Source of the DNA: a virus
Virus record (IMG/VR): IMGVR_UViG_3300017727_000011
Span: 1 to 59,445 of that record
Length of the DNA: 59,445 bases
Strand: one strand, 5' to 3'
Under the pieces are notes generated by a model. It was not told the origin of the DNA. It was given only the letters and a program-made list of their open reading frames with translations, and made no database searches. Positions 1 to 59,445 of this stretch are shown piece after piece. The position numbers and the translations under genes are program-made. Numbering within the stretch: the first letter of the stretch is position 1; every line of letters begins with the position of its first letter.

Positions 1-19
1 CTGCTTGGTTTATTGCCAT
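1..19 (-). CDS. Start of MAINQA-type structural protein gene (partial)
   Basis: Only the first six codons (MAINQA) lie inside the window. They follow a strong ribosome-binding site (AGGAGG, about 9 nt upstream of the ATG) and match exactly the start of the complete gene at 58862-59305. The same 26 nt (1-26) recur at 59287-59312. The gene is therefore most likely the one at the other end of the window, seen again because the molecule is circular or permuted; a second paralogous copy is the alternative. Confidence 0.6.
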
Positions 20-33
20 TTTAATTGCCCTCC

Positions 34-726
34 TTAGGCTTGGGGATTCGGATCAACAGATCTTAAAGGTATCCTTAAGACTCCGTCAACATACTCATCC
101 CTACGTTTTCTACCCATCTGCTCGTCAGCAAAAACTTTTAAAGCTGATTGATATTTTTGATCATATAATTGCATATCTTGTGTATTTTTCAAGAAGGAAA
201 AAGCTTCAGCAAGACATCCAAATAATAAAACTTCTGGTGCATTATTTGAAATAAATGTGGTTGATGATGTATTTCCAGTTCCATTACCAATACGTTCAGG
301 GCTTTCATTATACCACATTTCAATTGTGTAAACTTGATTAGGGGTAGGAGCTAGAATTAAATTTGTGGCATCCCAATTTGCCCAATATTTAGGTTGACCT
401 GTATCACTGGTTGTAGATCTTTGAACAGAATACTCATCAATAAAAGTAGCGTCTACTTGTTCAATCCAAACCCTATTGTTACTCGAATCAACAAGTTGTA
501 AAGCTCTCGCAAATCTAAACCCACCCTCTGGCCCAGAAACATCTAAAAAAGCATTATTTGCTGTGCAAGTAGTGGTTGCAAATCTTCTTTGATAATCACC
601 ATCAATAGTTCTATCTATTTTATTTTCAGTAGTTGTAATAAAAACGTTAATTATTGTATTAGTAAGAACATCAGAAGTTACTTCTGTATAATCTCTTATG
701 TTTGTTAATAATTCGCTATAGTTCAT
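34..726 (-). CDS. Connector/head-tail adaptor-like protein
   Basis: A 230-residue protein beginning MNYSELL. The start at 726 is chosen because its ATG overlaps the stop of the upstream gene as ATGA; a longer reading frame upstream is less likely. It has the mixed helix/strand composition and conserved tail (EQMGRKRRDEY, then VLRIP) of the short adaptor proteins that sit under the portal in podoviruses (SU10/T7 gp11/P22 gp4-type; family assignment is from memory). It sits two genes after another adaptor-like protein, so the pair probably forms the neck. Its last 41 residues are about 70% identical to the partial gene at 59319-59445. Confidence 0.6.
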   Translation of the reverse strand: MNYSELLTNIRDYTEVTSDVLTNTIINVFITTTENKIDRTIDGDYQRRFATTTCTANNAFLDVSGPEGGFRFARALQLVDSSNNRVWIEQVDATFIDEYSVQRSTTSDTGQPKYWANWDATNLILAPTPNQVYTIEMWYNESPERIGNGTGNTSSTTFISNNAPEVLLFGCLAEAFSFLKNTQDMQLYDQKYQSALKVFADEQMGRKRRDEYVDGVLRIPLRSVDPNPQA

Positions 727-1493
727 GTGCTTATTGAGTTCCCCATACCAGAGTGAACACTGCAATAATAATACAATGTTGGTGCTCCAATTGCTACTGT
801 AATTTGTAGTTCTCTAGAAGAAGCTGAAGCATAATCACTTGTGTAATCAGATTCGGATACATCAGAACCATTTATTCTATATATTACTCCTGTAGAATAA
901 GGTGAACCACCGTTGTGATTTCCATCATCTGTTGTGCTTAAATAAAATGGATGACTAGGAACTGTTCCGCTATCTAAGTTAAATACGTAAGTATCTCCTT
1001 CTGTTAAAGAAAGAGTAGGTCTTTCAACTCCATCAATATAAAAAGCATTTCCTCCACCACTTTTTGATCCCACAGTGACTGTATAAATAGTATCTCCTAC
1101 ACCGGTAGCTTGACCAATTCCAGAACTTGATAGAAGTCCTGTTACTGTAGCTATGACATCAGTATCGTCAGTAATTATGTTTAGAGTACCCGTTCTTGTT
1201 AAAGATAATAATGGTCTACTTATTGTTGATGGTTGCATCCCATTACTATTAAAAAAAGTATCATTTGGATTTCCCGCTACAACTACAACAGCTTGTGGTT
1301 TTTTTGGTCTTGGATTTTCAATTGCTTCAGCATCTGCACTTGAATAAGGTGGTTCTAATTGTGGATGTTTTGGTTCATAACATTCTTGACAGACTTCTAA
1401 TCCATTCCATTCTTTTTGTAATGTTAGGTAGGGATAAGCAAAACCACACCTGTCACAAATCGCTTGTGAAAATTTTCCTACTGCAAAAGACAT
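723..1493 (-). CDS. Virion-module protein with zinc ribbon and cupredoxin-like domain
   Basis: 256 residues. The N-terminus has two CxxC pairs (C13/C16 and C35/C38), a zinc-ribbon pattern. A Pro-rich linker and a beta-rich middle follow. The C-terminal 110 residues read like a cupredoxin: FYIDGVE and EGDTYVFNL strands, SHPF with H181, then YYYCSVHSGMG with C244, H247 and M250. His...Cys-x2-His-x2-Met is the type-1 copper ligand set with the loop spacing of amicyanin. The gene lies between two adaptor-like genes (stop TAA then ATG upstream; ATGA overlap downstream), so it is probably a neck or tail component. Copper binding is inferred; the fold could be kept only for structure. Confidence 0.6.
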   Translation of the reverse strand: MSFAVGKFSQAICDRCGFAYPYLTLQKEWNGLEVCQECYEPKHPQLEPPYSSADAEAIENPRPKKPQAVVVVAGNPNDTFFNSNGMQPSTISRPLLSLTRTGTLNIITDDTDVIATVTGLLSSSGIGQATGVGDTIYTVTVGSKSGGGNAFYIDGVERPTLSLTEGDTYVFNLDSGTVPSHPFYLSTTDDGNHNGGSPYSTGVIYRINGSDVSESDYTSDYASASSRELQITVAIGAPTLYYYCSVHSGMGNSIST

Positions 1494-2174
1494 TTAAACT
1501 CCTGGATAAAAGTTTTTAGGAACAATATTCACTGAAGTCGATTGACTGTCTTCAGTAATTGCCCTGGCTAACTCTGATTCATATCTTCTTTCAAGTTCAC
1601 CTGATAAAGCAGGATTTACTTCTTGAGATAAATAATATGCAAGTCCACTTACCATACAAGGTAAGAAACGAAAAGGTGCATCAGCAGTGTTTGTATATGC
1701 TCCTACATCTTGTATTCTTCCAACGTACCAATAATTAATTTGTGTGTCTGTGGTTAGAGGTGTTAAGTAAAGATTAATTTCAACATTGGCTAAATTTCTT
1801 CTTACATAATATTGTGTAGGAGTTCCTGTTGATCCTTTATTTGGAATATTCTGATATTCTGATCTTGAAATTTTAGTCATTGTTGTATCAGTAACTGTGC
1901 TTCCTGATGTTTGTCTAAAAACCATTTCTAAAATATCATCTGCATCACTAGGTGCTGTATAAAGAGATGTACTTGCTGTTAAGTTAGCAGTGGTATTTTT
2001 TACTTTCCAAAGTTGATAACCTCTATTAGCCCATTCAGAAAACAACAAATTTAAATTATCTCTAGCAGCATCAAGATCATATCCTGTACGCATAGAACGA
2101 CCTGCTCTACGATAAGCACGTTCAATTACTCTATCTATATTAAGATTAAAATCTGTTGTTCCTGAAGTAGCCAT
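1494..2174 (-). CDS. Connector/neck adaptor-like protein
   Basis: 226 residues. It opens with a helical segment (DRVIERAYRRAGRSMRTGYD) and ARDNLNLLFSEWANRGYQLW, a pattern seen in many phage adaptor or tail-tube proteins encoded just after the head genes, followed by beta-rich sequence and a helical C-terminus (ELERRYESELARAI). It is distinct in sequence from the second adaptor-like gene at 34-726. Its stop is immediately followed by the ATG of the next gene. Role in closing the portal vertex is inferred from position and composition. Confidence 0.55.
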   Translation of the reverse strand: MATSGTTDFNLNIDRVIERAYRRAGRSMRTGYDLDAARDNLNLLFSEWANRGYQLWKVKNTTANLTASTSLYTAPSDADDILEMVFRQTSGSTVTDTTMTKISRSEYQNIPNKGSTGTPTQYYVRRNLANVEINLYLTPLTTDTQINYWYVGRIQDVGAYTNTADAPFRFLPCMVSGLAYYLSQEVNPALSGELERRYESELARAITEDSQSTSVNIVPKNFYPGV

Positions 2175-11203: not shown

Positions 11204-11406
11204 TAGCTTTTATAGCCACCGCCCTTAGCTTTATATTGTTTAGCTAACATCTGTGCTTTTCTTGCACTCCACTGTCCAGGGTTTCCACCCTTTCCTCCAG
11301 CTTTAATACGATTAAATAAACTTTTTCTCATTCCAGGCTTAGTATAATTACCAGCCTTGTTAACAGTTGATTTGCTCTTCCTTGGCGTGCTTGTTGTTTT
11401 GCTCAT
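11203..11406 (-). CDS. Small basic protein (KAGNYTKPGMRK family)
   Basis: 67 residues from ATG 11406 (MSKTTSTPRK); a longer frame from 11427 is less likely. Contains KAGNYTKPGMRKSLFNRIKA and GGNPGQWSARKAQMLAKQYK, a short basic family I have seen repeatedly in marine phage genomes without known function. It lies inside the run of tiny genes between holin and lysozyme and overlaps the Cys-rich gene by 47 nt. Confidence 0.65.
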   Translation of the reverse strand: MSKTTSTPRKSKSTVNKAGNYTKPGMRKSLFNRIKAGGKGGNPGQWSARKAQMLAKQYKAKGGGYKS

Positions 11407-11551
11407 TTGATTCCTCGTTATTACCATGTCTACATCCTACGTGACCACATTCTATACAAGATTGTCCGCAATGGCAAAGACAACCGCATCCTTCACATAA
11501 AGATAATTGTGATTCACATTTAAGACAAAGATTATCACAACCTTCACACAT
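11360..11551 (-). CDS. 63-residue Cys-rich protein
   Basis: The first 43 residues hold thirteen Cys in CxxC and CxC patterns (MCEGCDNLCLKCESQLSLCE, GCGCLCHCGQSC, ECGHVGC), then a Glu/Asn-rich tail. This looks like several zinc knuckles or a metallothionein-like cluster. Its ATG overlaps the holin gene stop (11551). The last 47 nt are shared with the start of the basic-protein gene in another frame. Function unknown. Confidence 0.6.
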   Translation of the reverse strand: MCEGCDNLCLKCESQLSLCEGCGCLCHCGQSCIECGHVGCRHGNNEESNEQNNKHAKEEQINC

Positions 11552-54654: not shown

Positions 54655-54682
54655 ACTATACAAAATATTTTTTTAAAATCAA
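54655..54682 (-). promoter_or_regulatory. Promoter before the four-Cys gene
   Basis: TTGATT (54677-54682) overlaps the fibre gene stop codon, 16-nt spacer, TATAGT (54655-54660), then 11 nt to the ATG with no ribosome site. Would drive the four-Cys gene and the oxygenase island. Confidence 0.45.
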
Positions 54683-55752
54683 TCTTTAGTAGCCGCTATG
54701 ATATCTTCATACTTAACGTCCATAGTAGGAACAGTCAAGGAGACGCTGTCAGAACTCACTGAACCACTAGCTGTTATTGGAGAACCACTAAAAGGGTGGC
54801 TGTGTGCACCACTGCCTCCTGTACCGCCAGAATTTCTAGCAGGTTGATTATCATAAAACGGAACATAGTAATTATTAGCTGGGGTTTGATATCTATAATT
54901 AGTGAAAGTACCTCTAGGTACTGCACCAGATGCACTTGAGGGGTGAGTGTGTGATGCTATTGTTGGAGAACCCAAAGAAGTGTCACCTGTAGAACCACTT
55001 ACTGTTCCTGAACTACTTACCGCAAAAGGAACTGTTTTTGCTTCTGTTGTTTTACTTGAAGCAAGAGTCGTTGTAAATCCATCAGCACCACCTACGCCTC
55101 CACCTGATCCTGTTACAACTCTTAAACAACAATCGTTTATGGTAGCCGCTGTATTTTGTGTCCAACCTGTTGGTGCGGTTCCTTGATAAAAAAGAGCCGT
55201 TGATCCTGAAGGAATAGATGAAACACCTGTCAAGTTAGCTCCATTGCCTGAATAAGTTGTTGCGTTAACGGTTCCGTTAGAAGATATAACTGTTCCATTA
55301 ACAGTCAAAGATTCTTTAACACTAAAAGTTCCAAGAGAATTAGCAAAAAGATCGACCATTGCATCCCCTTTATTATACATTATTGTGTGTGCTCCCTGTA
55401 CAACAGTTACTCCATTTGATCCGTGGCCCGTAGGCGCTACAGTCAAAGATTGTGATCCTGATGTATTATTAAAGAATATGTAGTTGGACTCTACGGCAGG
55501 AACAAAAACAGTAATATCTCCTGTTAGAGCGCCTGTAAACTCTATGACTTTGTTAGATGCTTCAGCATTTGGATCAGCATTATTTGTGGACAAAGTTACA
55601 TTAGCAGAACCAGCGACATCTTTAGATAAATAACCAGCAGTGAAAGCATCAATTGTTTCTAAATTTGTGTTGGTGTTATTCCCCCATGTATTTGCATTGG
55701 CTCCTGTTTCTTGAAGTTCTAATTTATATCTATCTGAATAAGTGCTTGTCAT
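54679..55752 (-). CDS. Tail fibre/collar protein, paralog 1
   Basis: 357 residues. The first half (YSDRYKLELQETGANANTWG, AFTAGYLSKDVAGSANVTLS, GALTGDITVFVPAVESNYIF, TVAPTGHGSNGV) is shared with the next two genes and probably attaches to the tail. The second half is a collar-like domain: STALFYQGTAPTGWTQ then Gly-rich stretches with HTHP and HSHPF, the His pairs that bind metal in T4 gp12-type trimers. This copy has the most diverged C-terminal part (RYQTPANNYYVPFYDNQPAR). AAAGGATT ribosome site. Confidence 0.7.
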   Translation of the reverse strand: MTSTYSDRYKLELQETGANANTWGNNTNTNLETIDAFTAGYLSKDVAGSANVTLSTNNADPNAEASNKVIEFTGALTGDITVFVPAVESNYIFFNNTSGSQSLTVAPTGHGSNGVTVVQGAHTIMYNKGDAMVDLFANSLGTFSVKESLTVNGTVISSNGTVNATTYSGNGANLTGVSSIPSGSTALFYQGTAPTGWTQNTAATINDCCLRVVTGSGGGVGGADGFTTTLASSKTTEAKTVPFAVSSSGTVSGSTGDTSLGSPTIASHTHPSSASGAVPRGTFTNYRYQTPANNYYVPFYDNQPARNSGGTGGSGAHSHPFSGSPITASGSVSSDSVSLTVPTMDVKYEDIIAATKD

Positions 55753-55755
55753 TTT

Positions 55756-56802
55756 TTAATCCTTTGATGCTATAATATTGTCTACATATTTCAATTCTAT
55801 ATTTGGAACACTTTGAGATACAGATATAGGTATTGAACCAGAGTATGTTGCTCCTCCTGAAATTGGGTGTGAGTGAGATCCACCGCCACCTGTATTGTTT
55901 ACGTTACGACTTCCTGGTTCAGTGACAAACGATTGTCCATAGTTTCTATTACCTCCTGTGGATCCCGCAAATCTAGAATGATAATATTGGTGAGTGTGAC
56001 CACCAAGAGTAGGTGTAGAAATAGTTGTTCCGCCAGAAGTTCCACTCACGGGAGATTGAGGCAACGGAGACATATCGACAGCAAGAGTTCCTGTAGCATC
56101 TTTAGCAGCAAAGGTTGTCGTAAAATCTTGTGCTCCGCCAGTGCCTCCACCAGAACCGTTGACAACTCTTAGAGTTGAATTATTTAAAGATGCAGTTGTG
56201 TCTTTTGTAAAACCTGTAGGAGCATCTGTTTGAACAAACAGGGCTTTTGTTCCAGCAGGGAATTCATCAACACCCGAAATTCCTGCACCATTACCTTTGT
56301 ATGTTGTAGCTGCAACAACACCATTTGAATTTAATTGAATATCATCTCCTATTCTTAATTGATTAATTACACGAACAGTGCCTAAAGAATTTGCAAACAA
56401 ATCCACCACTGTATCTCCAGTACAATATTGGACTGTATGAGAACCTTGAGATATTAAAGATCCATTAGAACCATGTCCCGTAGGTGCAACGGTTAAAGTA
56501 AAAGAACCTGAAGTATTATTAAAAAATATGTAATTGTTTTCTACAGCAGGAATAAAAACAGTAATATCTCCTGTCAATGCTCCTGTAAATTCAATAACTT
56601 TATTCGAAGCTTCTGCGTTAGGATCAGCATTGTTACTTGTAAGAGTTACATTTGCAGATCCAGCTACGCTTTTTGCTAGATACCCAGCATTGAAAGAATC
56701 AACTGTTTGTAAATTTGTATTAGTATTATTTCCCCAAGTGTTTGTGTTGGCTCCTGTAGCCATCAATTCAAGTTTGAGTCTATCTGAATAAGTGCTTGCC
56801 AT
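55756..56802 (-). CDS. Tail fibre/collar protein, paralog 2
   Basis: 348 residues, same build as its neighbours: conserved N-terminal half (DRLKLELMATGANTNTWGNN, VAGSANVTLTSNNADPNAEA) and collar domain TKALFVQTDAPTGFTKDT with HTHQYYHS and SHSHPISGG. The middle (GTVRVINQLRIGDDIQLNSN) differs from paralogs 1 and 3. Ends 4 nt before paralog 1. Confidence 0.7.
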   Translation of the reverse strand: MASTYSDRLKLELMATGANTNTWGNNTNTNLQTVDSFNAGYLAKSVAGSANVTLTSNNADPNAEASNKVIEFTGALTGDITVFIPAVENNYIFFNNTSGSFTLTVAPTGHGSNGSLISQGSHTVQYCTGDTVVDLFANSLGTVRVINQLRIGDDIQLNSNGVVAATTYKGNGAGISGVDEFPAGTKALFVQTDAPTGFTKDTTASLNNSTLRVVNGSGGGTGGAQDFTTTFAAKDATGTLAVDMSPLPQSPVSGTSGGTTISTPTLGGHTHQYYHSRFAGSTGGNRNYGQSFVTEPGSRNVNNTGGGGSHSHPISGGATYSGSIPISVSQSVPNIELKYVDNIIASKD

Positions 56803-56803
56803 T

Positions 56804-57838
56804 TTAATCCTTACTGCAAACTATAGTGTTTGCATGTTTTATATCCATGTTGGGTACTGCATAACTAGTAGGAGTGTTCACACTTCCACTAATAGAAGCA
56901 GAGAAAGCAGCAGGGTGATTATGACTTCCACCGCCACCACCACTTCCGGTAGTACCTAGTGTAACACAACCGCCGCCACCAGGACCACCATAAGGAGATA
57001 TTGTGGCAGAGGTACTAACAGTATGATTATGTGATGCTATTGTTGGAGTTCCTAAGGTAGTGTTTCCAACAACAATAGTGTCAGTAACAACAGTGGTTGC
57101 TGCAGTATCTAATGTGATGTCACCTGCCGTAGTTGTCTTAGCGGAATCAAAACAAGAAGCAAATTCGGTAGATCCTCCTGTGCCTGCTGATCCTGTGACT
57201 ACTCTTAAAGTAGAATTAGCTAAAGAAGCATCAGTGTTTTGTGTCCAACCTGTCGGAGCACTTGATTCTAAAAAAACCATTTGTGTTCCTTGGTCAAGAG
57301 TCGATACTCCGTCTAAACCTGCACCATTGCCTGTAAAGCTTGTTGCTGTTAATTCACCATTAGCTTGAATTTTTACAGTGTTAGCAACGTTAACTAAATT
57401 TTTTACACTTACTTTTCCTAATGAATTTGCAAAAAGATCTACTACAGTATCTCCTGTGCAATACTGCATTGTGTGAGCACCTTGTACAATAGCTACACCG
57501 TTAGACGTATGCCCGGTTGGAGCTACAGTTAATGTAAAAGAGCCTGCTGTGTTGTTAAAAAAAATATAATTATTTTCCACTGCGGGAACAAAAACTTTGA
57601 TGTCTCCAGTTAATGTTCCTGTGAATTCAATAATTTTGTTTGATGCCTCCGCACTTGGATCAGCGTCGGCTGTTGTTAAAGTAACATCCGCACTACCTGC
57701 TACACTTTTTGATAAATATCCTGCTCCAAAGCTGTCAACTACATTTAAGTTATTATTTGTGTTAGTTCCCCAAACATTGGCATTTGCACCTGTTGCCATT
57801 AATTCTAATTTTAATCTATCTGAGTATGTGGATGCCAT
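56804..57838 (-). CDS. Tail fibre/collar protein, paralog 3
   Basis: 344 residues. N-terminal half nearly as in paralog 2 (YSDRLKLELMATGANANVWG), collar domain TQMVFLESSAPTGWTQNT, and ASHNHTVS, SHNHPAAF His pairs around a Gly-rich loop (GGPGGGGCVTLGTTGSGGGG). It has its own promoter (57845-57873) and is the first of the three transcribed. Confidence 0.7.
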   Translation of the reverse strand: MASTYSDRLKLELMATGANANVWGTNTNNNLNVVDSFGAGYLSKSVAGSADVTLTTADADPSAEASNKIIEFTGTLTGDIKVFVPAVENNYIFFNNTAGSFTLTVAPTGHTSNGVAIVQGAHTMQYCTGDTVVDLFANSLGKVSVKNLVNVANTVKIQANGELTATSFTGNGAGLDGVSTLDQGTQMVFLESSAPTGWTQNTDASLANSTLRVVTGSAGTGGSTEFASCFDSAKTTTAGDITLDTAATTVVTDTIVVGNTTLGTPTIASHNHTVSTSATISPYGGPGGGGCVTLGTTGSGGGGGSHNHPAAFSASISGSVNTPTSYAVPNMDIKHANTIVCSKD

Positions 57839-57883: not shown

Positions 57884-58840
57884 CTATGCCGCCACTGAAG
57901 TCCATGTGTTACTCGCACCTGTTACAACATTTGCCCATGGCGTTGATCTTATATTACCAACACTAGCTAACATTTCAACCCCTGTTGGCAACACTGTTGC
58001 TCCTGCAGTTGGAGTAGCAGTTCCATCTGTAAATGCCATTGAAAGACCAGCCACAGTAATTGGAATAACAACATCTCCAATATTAGTAGATATTTGTTGC
58101 CCTGTTGGAAGAGCTGCTGCAGGAGCTACTAAAGTCCCTGTTTCAAATGTTGATACTAAAGATGTTGCATCTACCTGAGTAAAGATGTCAATTTCTACCG
58201 AACCAAGAGCGGTATCCATAAGATCTGGAGGAGCGGATGTAGTAACGCTTCCATCAGCTATAATTGTAGCTAGAGCTGCTGTTGATGTAATATTTAATCC
58301 TGTTACAGAAAGTATTTGATCTGTAACAAAACTAAAACTACCTAAATCTGTGGATAATAAATTAGTAGTTCCAATTGCTTCATTACCTGTACCTACAAAA
58401 ATACTTACACTGGACTGATCAAAGGATATTTCTTGACCTGTAACAGAAACATTTTGCGTTATGTTTTCATTCCAAGCGAATGATCCCCAGTCATTTCTAC
58501 CCCAACCTGCATCGACTGTTGTGATAATAGTTTCTGTTCCATCAGCAAAAACCATTTCAACCCCTGTGGGTTGTACTCCATGGCCTTCAGAAATACTGAT
58601 GGTGCCTAATGTTGTTGTGGATTGTTCGCCTGTTAGAGCGTAGATACCCTCTGCTTCACCGATTGCAGTGCCAGTTATTGTGGATGCTTCCACACCTGTG
58701 GGGTTAATAAGTGCAGTACCAGTTCTACCTACATCTTCTAATGTAAATGAACTTGCTACACCAGTGACAGAAACTGTTATGGAGCTTTGTTGGCCCCAAA
58801 AGCCTTCGCCCCAATTATTTTCACCCCAAGCGTCTGCCAT
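57884..58840 (-). CDS. Repetitive structural protein with WG-W motifs
   Basis: 318 residues: MADAWGENNWGEGFWGQQSS, then repeated beta units ending in TGV or TGQ (VSVTGVASSF, NPTGVEAST, QPTGVEMVF, LPTGQQIST, LPTGVEMLA) and another GWGRNDWGSFAWNE. WGxxxWG repeats with T-G-V strands are common in virion proteins of marine phages, probably tail or capsid fibres. GGGAGT ribosome site. Ends with a Trp (SNTWTSVAA). Confidence 0.6.
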   Translation of the reverse strand: MADAWGENNWGEGFWGQQSSITVSVTGVASSFTLEDVGRTGTALINPTGVEASTITGTAIGEAEGIYALTGEQSTTTLGTISISEGHGVQPTGVEMVFADGTETIITTVDAGWGRNDWGSFAWNENITQNVSVTGQEISFDQSSVSIFVGTGNEAIGTTNLLSTDLGSFSFVTDQILSVTGLNITSTAALATIIADGSVTTSAPPDLMDTALGSVEIDIFTQVDATSLVSTFETGTLVAPAAALPTGQQISTNIGDVVIPITVAGLSMAFTDGTATPTAGATVLPTGVEMLASVGNIRSTPWANVVTGASNTWTSVAA

Positions 58841-58861: not shown

Positions 58862-59305
58862 TTAGGAAATCCTTAGAATAGCACTTGATGCGTCGTTGGT
58901 TGGAAACTGAATTGTAAATGTTCCGTTTGTTGATGTTTTTACACCGCCAAAATCTAATACTGCAATTGCTGCATTTGTAGCTGTTGATGATCTATTATAA
59001 ATCAAAGCTGCTTGAGCTGAGATTGTTGCACTTGTAAATGATAGATCAGCAAAATCTACAAAAGCTGTAGATGCGGTATCACTAGTTTTGGTTAAGCCGA
59101 CAGTAGCACTCTGTAATGTTGCACCGCCTGCTGCGTATGTGCCTGATGCACCAACTTCGTTGGTTGCAGCATAGGCTGTTGTGTTTGCGTTCAATGTGGC
59201 AGAATCTGTAAAAAGAGCGAGATTAACTGTATCGTTAGTTATATCATGATCGCCGTTTAACAACTCCTGTTTAAATGTTGCACAAACTGCTTGGTTTATT
59301 GCCAT
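58862..59305 (-). CDS. Beta-rich virion structural protein (MAINQA)
   Basis: 147 residues: MAINQAVCATFKQELLNGDH, DTVNLALFTDSATL, GGATLQSATVGLTKTSDTAS, FVDFADLSFTSATISAQAAL, IYNRSSTATNAAIAVLDFGG. A FVDFADLSWTSAT-like block is recurrent in marine phage structural proteins. GGGAG ribosome site. It follows the partial adaptor gene by 13 nt; the same gene order is cut at the left end of the window. Confidence 0.65.
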   Translation of the reverse strand: MAINQAVCATFKQELLNGDHDITNDTVNLALFTDSATLNANTTAYAATNEVGASGTYAAGGATLQSATVGLTKTSDTASTAFVDFADLSFTSATISAQAALIYNRSSTATNAAIAVLDFGGVKTSTNGTFTIQFPTNDASSAILRIS

Positions 59306-59318
59306 TTTAATTACTCCC

Positions 59319-59445
59319 TTATGGTGATAACGATTTCATCGGAATGCGTAACACACCATTTTGATACTCATCCCTACGTTTGCGACCCATTTGCTCTTGT
59401 GCAAAATCTTGCAGAGCTACTTGGTACTTACCTTCGTATAATTGC
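59319..59445 (-). CDS. 3' end of connector/adaptor-like gene (partial)
   Basis: The 41 C-terminal residues (QLYEGKYQVALQDFAQEQMG then RKRRDEYQNGVLRIPMKSLS) are about 70% identical to the end of the adaptor gene at 34-726, and the DNA ends at the equivalent point (172 on the left). The upstream part lies outside the window. Either the same locus in a diverged strain, met again at the circle closure, or a second adaptor copy. Confidence 0.65.
   Translation of the reverse strand, partial: QLYEGKYQVALQDFAQEQMGRKRRDEYQNGVLRIPMKSLSP

Follow-up and report, generated by a model that had tools for sequence, protein, structure and literature searches.

A predicted copper-binding cupredoxin domain as a mobile, optional module of a podovirus neck gene

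Can a structural gene of a phage neck carry a metal site, and what would the particle gain from it? These questions are raised by a gene of IMG/VR virus record IMGVR_UViG_3300017727_000011 that joins an N-terminal CxxC...CxxC ribbon to a C-terminal domain resembling the blue-copper proteins. We analyzed positions 1 to 59,445 of that record, a stretch that we call the window, and asked whether the fold and the copper ligands are what they seem, how the domain is distributed, and which role on the particle fits the evidence.

The gene and its head-tail connector cluster

The window belongs to an HTVC023P-like podovirus, since its terminase and major capsid protein are closest to those of HTVC023P, HTVC027P, 023Pt_psg01, and the freshwater DSL-LC04. 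The gene of interest lies near the start of the window, and all features considered here are on the minus strand.

34..726, minus strand: downstream adaptor-like gene (Pfam SU10_adaptor, E 2.6e-23; match on 34..765)
723..1493, minus strand: neck-cluster gene of 256 aa, with an N-terminal ribbon domain, a linker, and a C-terminal cupredoxin domain
726..1091, minus strand: predicted cupredoxin domain, aa 135-256 (AF2 model of aa 130-256 and structure matches)
728..1193, minus strand: mobile module (replaced by 25 bp in L042/L043)
744..746, minus strand: M250, predicted axial copper ligand (residue position, conservation in homologues)
753..755, minus strand: H247, predicted copper ligand 3 (residue position, conservation in homologues, plastocyanin alignment)
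762..764, minus strand: C244, predicted copper ligand 2 (residue position, conservation in homologues, plastocyanin alignment)
951..953, minus strand: H181, predicted copper ligand 1 (residue position, conservation in homologues, plastocyanin alignment)
1260..1487, minus strand: conserved N-terminal connector domain, aa 3-78 (phrog_28581, E 8.3e-15)
1380..1457, minus strand: CxxC...CxxC (C13, C16, C35, C38), putative zinc site (residue positions confirmed)
1494..2174, minus strand: upstream adaptor-like gene (Pfam SU10_adaptor, E 1.8e-10; phrog_12985, E 2.7e-30)

The initial annotation had placed the gene between two connector-adaptor-like genes, and both neighbors do match SU10_adaptor, a family of head-tail connectors; its residue numbering (C13, C16, C35, C38, H181, C244, H247, and M250) is also correct throughout. 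The longest open reading frame of the downstream adaptor starts at 765; at 726 there is an ATG that shares bases with the stop codon of the cupredoxin gene (ATGA, 726-723). This stop/start overlap with the downstream adaptor is kept in relatives that lack the module, such as L042.

To view the locus from the ribbon side, we used a sample selected by the ribbon part alone, the best-scoring 80 of at least 597 loci, from which rates are only a guide. The order adaptor-ribbon-adaptor was found in all 80, which makes the ribbon part a core connector gene. The two CxxC knuckles that had been read as a zinc ribbon are present in the window, but about half of the relatives have lost these cysteines together: of about 108 distinct relatives, 51 have all four, and most of the others have none or one. 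In HTVC023P itself, the cysteines are replaced (ISDRSG...VHISEFE). The Pfam scan gave no zinc-finger family at cut-off for the ribbon part, and full-length structure prediction modeled the ribbon and linker poorly, with low confidence. Judged from its cysteines, zinc binding by the window's ribbon is plausible and would not be general among relatives.

Several other features of the window were recorded. The genome is either circular or permuted, because three contigs (L001-L003) continue from window position 1 up to roughly 59321. Within the window end (59286-59445), the final ~124 bp resemble a diverged copy of the end of adaptor 2, which perhaps reflects a strain mixture in the assembly; direct comparison rejected window positions 1-36 as an exact repeat of 59286-59321. 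A 63-aa open reading frame at 11360..11551 (minus strand; MCEGCDNLCLKCESQLSLCEGCGCLCHCGQSCIECGHVGC...) is very cysteine rich and possibly binds metal. At 54679..57838 (minus strand) lie three adjacent paralogous genes of 344-357 aa that have near-identical starts and diverge toward their ends, perhaps alternative tail-tip proteins. In Roseobacter phage CRP-901, the ribbon protein (L293:2492-3436) ends in a part similar to the WG-repeat stretch with which the window gene at 57884..58840 (minus strand) begins.

The C-terminal domain and its predicted copper site

A cupredoxin-like C-terminal domain had been proposed from the letters of the sequence, and structure prediction gave a cupredoxin fold with the ligands at the expected strands. 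The AF2 model of aa 130-256 had a pLDDT of 89.9 and a pTM of 0.84. DSSP assignment of the model put H181 before a strand, C244 at a strand end, and H247 and M250 in the loop preceding the last strand. The top matches among solved structures (VIA) were rusticyanin (Z 9.7) and the N-terminal domain of three-domain copper nitrite reductase (Z 9.1), with laccase domains next; Z values below 8 in such comparisons may reflect a common arrangement, and the top values here are above 8. The best Foldseek matches were a nitrite reductase cupredoxin domain (E 2.7e-4) and rusticyanin, at a moderate TM of about 0.5.

Sequence searches reached the same fold through a homologue on a SAR86 chromosome. Its sole PDB sequence matches are four plastocyanins (best E 0.017), and in the alignment the H, C, and H fall on the copper ligands of plastocyanin; the Met is offset because the loop is shorter. 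Direct scans of the cupredoxin part returned no significant Pfam or NCBIfam match, and no curated copper-family model reached its cut-off among the homologues; the best E value for PF00127 (Copper-bind) was 0.0042, with L098 at 0.028, below the gathering score. For scanning, we used a narrow alignment, since one built from 12 diverse domains was too heterogeneous. A profile search of the PDB was dominated by antibody 'YYC' matches, with multicopper oxidase and pseudoazurin appearing weakly. Taken with the ligand statistics below, the model, the structure matches, and the SAR86-plastocyanin alignment identify the C-terminal domain as a predicted cupredoxin, a fold that InterPro, CATH, or other annotation systems may already flag.

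H181, C244, H247, and M250 had been read as the type-1 copper ligands, with an amicyanin-like Cys-x2-His-x2-Met spacing; the set is complete, and most homologues keep it. We gathered 262 distinct ungapped homologous domains with search patterns that mostly avoided the ligand residues. The complete HCHM set is present in 231 of these; together with the phage records that match the domain, this shows that the pattern did not arise by chance. When grouped into 17 clusters at 50% identity, 10 clusters had the full set, 2 had it with one variant member each, 1 had Met replaced by Gln, and 4 were without the Cys. Among the 262, the few exceptions had mostly lost the set jointly: H181 or C244 is missing in 29 domains, and in 27 of these both are gone. 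The sequences are related and this was corrected only roughly, which makes the Fisher value for the joint loss no more than a guide. Just three variants keep the Cys, and all three have an altered axial Met (Gln in L075; Leu in L206 and L148, the latter also with a His-to-Asp change). The ligands rank among the most conserved positions of the domain. The ligand-less domains are more diverged overall, and general decay may account for some of the joint loss. Since the four ligands are retained together, we argue that copper is bound and important; from the sequences and the model, copper binding by the domain appears likely.

A different explanation is that phages reuse the cupredoxin fold as an Ig-like decoration or receptor-binding domain, with the ligands kept for packing and no metal bound. 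Beta-sandwich decorations are common on phage surfaces, and the fold can serve without copper, since ligand-less copies persist in phage structural genes. Baseplate-type proteins, for example, carry tandem copies of which one is intact and one ligand-less (P-HM2 gp7 [L073], S-MbCM6 gp7 [L076], and L064), although in the P-HM2-type ligand-less copies the alignment is uncertain around the last two ligand positions. However, the conservation of the ligands and their variation as a set speak against a packing role, the single changes include axial Met to Gln or Leu, which real type-1 sites tolerate, and packing can hardly account for a free Cys kept with two His and a Met. We therefore regard structural reuse without metal as unlikely and continue with a domain that would bind copper.

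Gain, loss, and exchange of the domain

The module can be absent from otherwise similar loci. In L042 and L043, the flanks are 95-96% identical to the window, and 25 bp stand in place of the 466 bp at 728-1193. In the L004/L005 loci, the ribbon has ~60% DNA identity to the window, and most stretches of the module are 90-100% identical. A codon comparison of the window with L004 gives 14 synonymous and 7 nonsynonymous differences in 153 codons of the module, versus 18 synonymous and 23 nonsynonymous differences in 66 codons of the ribbon.

We found the ribbon-cupredoxin fusion in 115 open reading frames, a number that is not a rate, as most of the loci had been retrieved through the cupredoxin. 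Within the ribbon-selected sample, which is again a guide only, the fusion occurs in 8 of 80 loci, and 5 more have the domain nearby. With just 8 fusions in 80 loci, the cupredoxin is not essential. We also considered the module as typical of the HTVC023P-like group and rejected this, as 67 of the 80 loci are without it in the stretch covered.

Within the connector cluster, the domain is found in several other places. It stands at the front of adaptor 1 in 023Pt_psg01 (L067) and L180, in the gene after adaptor 2 in L048-L058, and in the middle of adaptor 2 in L345:2988-4016 (plus strand), L119, L157, and L176; these last loci also carry the ribbon-cupredoxin fusion. A different inserted domain is seen in adaptor 1 of HTVC027P (gp64, L292:2554-3492), where aa 91-162 match a tail-fiber family, which suggests that neck adaptors accept varied decorations.

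In all, 225 phage records match the window protein, nearly all through the C-terminal domain, and at least 514 viral-contig stretches contain the domain. Outside the HTVC023P-like group, it occurs in putative tail fibers of the pelagiphages HTVC028P and EXVC032P Baldr and in cyanophage baseplate genes, and fold searches also retrieve giant-virus 'beta-sandwich' proteins. A phage-only domain was also considered, but SAR86 contigs of 0.47 and 1.19 Mb encode it among housekeeping genes, which rules this out. One of the SAR86 carriers, a lipoprotein-like protein of 182 aa, keeps all four ligands, and overall the domain is found there in small lipoprotein-like and large secreted proteins (L100:3764-4312, L098:3101-4270, and L101:2-6040), one with a subtilisin-like part. 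These comparisons indicate that the cupredoxin is a mobile, optional module common to many marine phage structural genes and to marine bacteria.

Possible roles on the particle and relation to known systems

On balance, we favor the reading that the gene carries an exchangeable copper-binding surface domain on the neck, with a possible role in host interaction. The conserved N-terminal ribbon would sit at the head-tail junction together with the two adaptor proteins, and the cupredoxin would be displayed on the neck exterior and hold one copper ion through H181, C244, H247, and M250. Phages gain, lose, and exchange the module and place it also on tail fibers, baseplate genes, and adaptors. Most likely it would act as an accessory binding domain that aids contact of the particle with the host envelope, and the copper site would be needed for the functional fold or for that contact. 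The domain seems to behave as an accessory surface module because it is gained, lost, and swapped and is placed on several outward-facing structural proteins; Ig-like and carbohydrate-binding decorations are comparable modules. The parts of this reading differ in strength. The sequence comparisons and the model show the predicted fold, the conservation and joint loss of the ligands, the gene order, and the gain, loss, and exchange of the module, whereas the copper and the uses on the particle are inferred from them. Copper binding is likely. Presence of the protein in the virion is very probable, a role in host interaction has about an even chance, and redox use is doubtful. Attachment to the host envelope would be the most likely step to use copper, with redox contact or metal-guided entry less likely.

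Two more specific uses of copper were weighed. Type-1 copper sites mostly serve electron transfer, and the full type-1 ligand set would suit a redox module that trades electrons with proteins of the host envelope or shields the entering particle from oxidants, but no redox partner was identified nearby, and we think this use quite improbable. We give a similarly small chance to Trojan-horse entry, in which host metal-uptake receptors would recognize copper on the neck or tail. An iron version of such metal piracy, the Ferrojan Horse idea of iron in marine phage tail fibers, has been proposed in print for marine phages (PMC11705849), and the domain studied here has a wide distribution among marine phages and occurs in genomes of marine bacteria as well. 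Against this, the window's domain is on the neck cluster rather than a fiber tip, and nothing in the data ties copper uptake to the receptors of these hosts. The accessory surface domain with a predicted copper site remains our preferred reading.

Judged from the sequences and the model, the particles of some common ocean viruses may bear copper. If the domain binds copper, it would change the view of how abundant marine phages attach or stay stable, and it would add a possible biological copper pool in the ocean; if a surface copper module works in infection, phages would be copper carriers in seawater. The stronger version, in which many abundant marine phages bear working blue-copper proteins and use the copper in infection through redox contact or copper-dependent attachment, is in our view unlikely. 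No virion cupredoxin or phage-particle copper protein was found in the literature searched, outside which lie subscription papers and preprints, or in the family libraries, which name the carrier genes and not the copper fold. The fold itself is known; what we did not find in these sources are phage structural genes that use it as a mobile module whose predicted copper site is intact.

The window gene can be compared with four known systems. The HTVC023P-type connector gene (phrog_28581; HTVC023P gp55) shares the ribbon domain between two adaptor genes, but gp55 is without the cupredoxin and without the ribbon cysteines. The cyanophage baseplate wedge and tail fiber families phrog_708, phrog_677, and phrog_30742 contain a homologous domain with the same ligands; their descriptions refer to the carrier gene (tail, baseplate) and not to a copper fold, and some of their tandem copies are ligand-less. 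Plastocyanin, rusticyanin, amicyanin, and the N-terminal domain of three-domain nitrite reductase share the fold predicted for the window's domain and its H...C..H..M order, whereas the phage domain, unlike these cupredoxins, is a C-terminal or inserted module of structural genes and has a long insert between strands. The iron-binding tail fibers of Alteromonas phage R22Y are likewise a proposed case of metal on a marine phage particle (PMC11705849); in fibers of that type, iron would be held by HxH motifs in the fiber itself, whereas the predicted type-1 copper site of the window gene lies in a mobile domain of its own.
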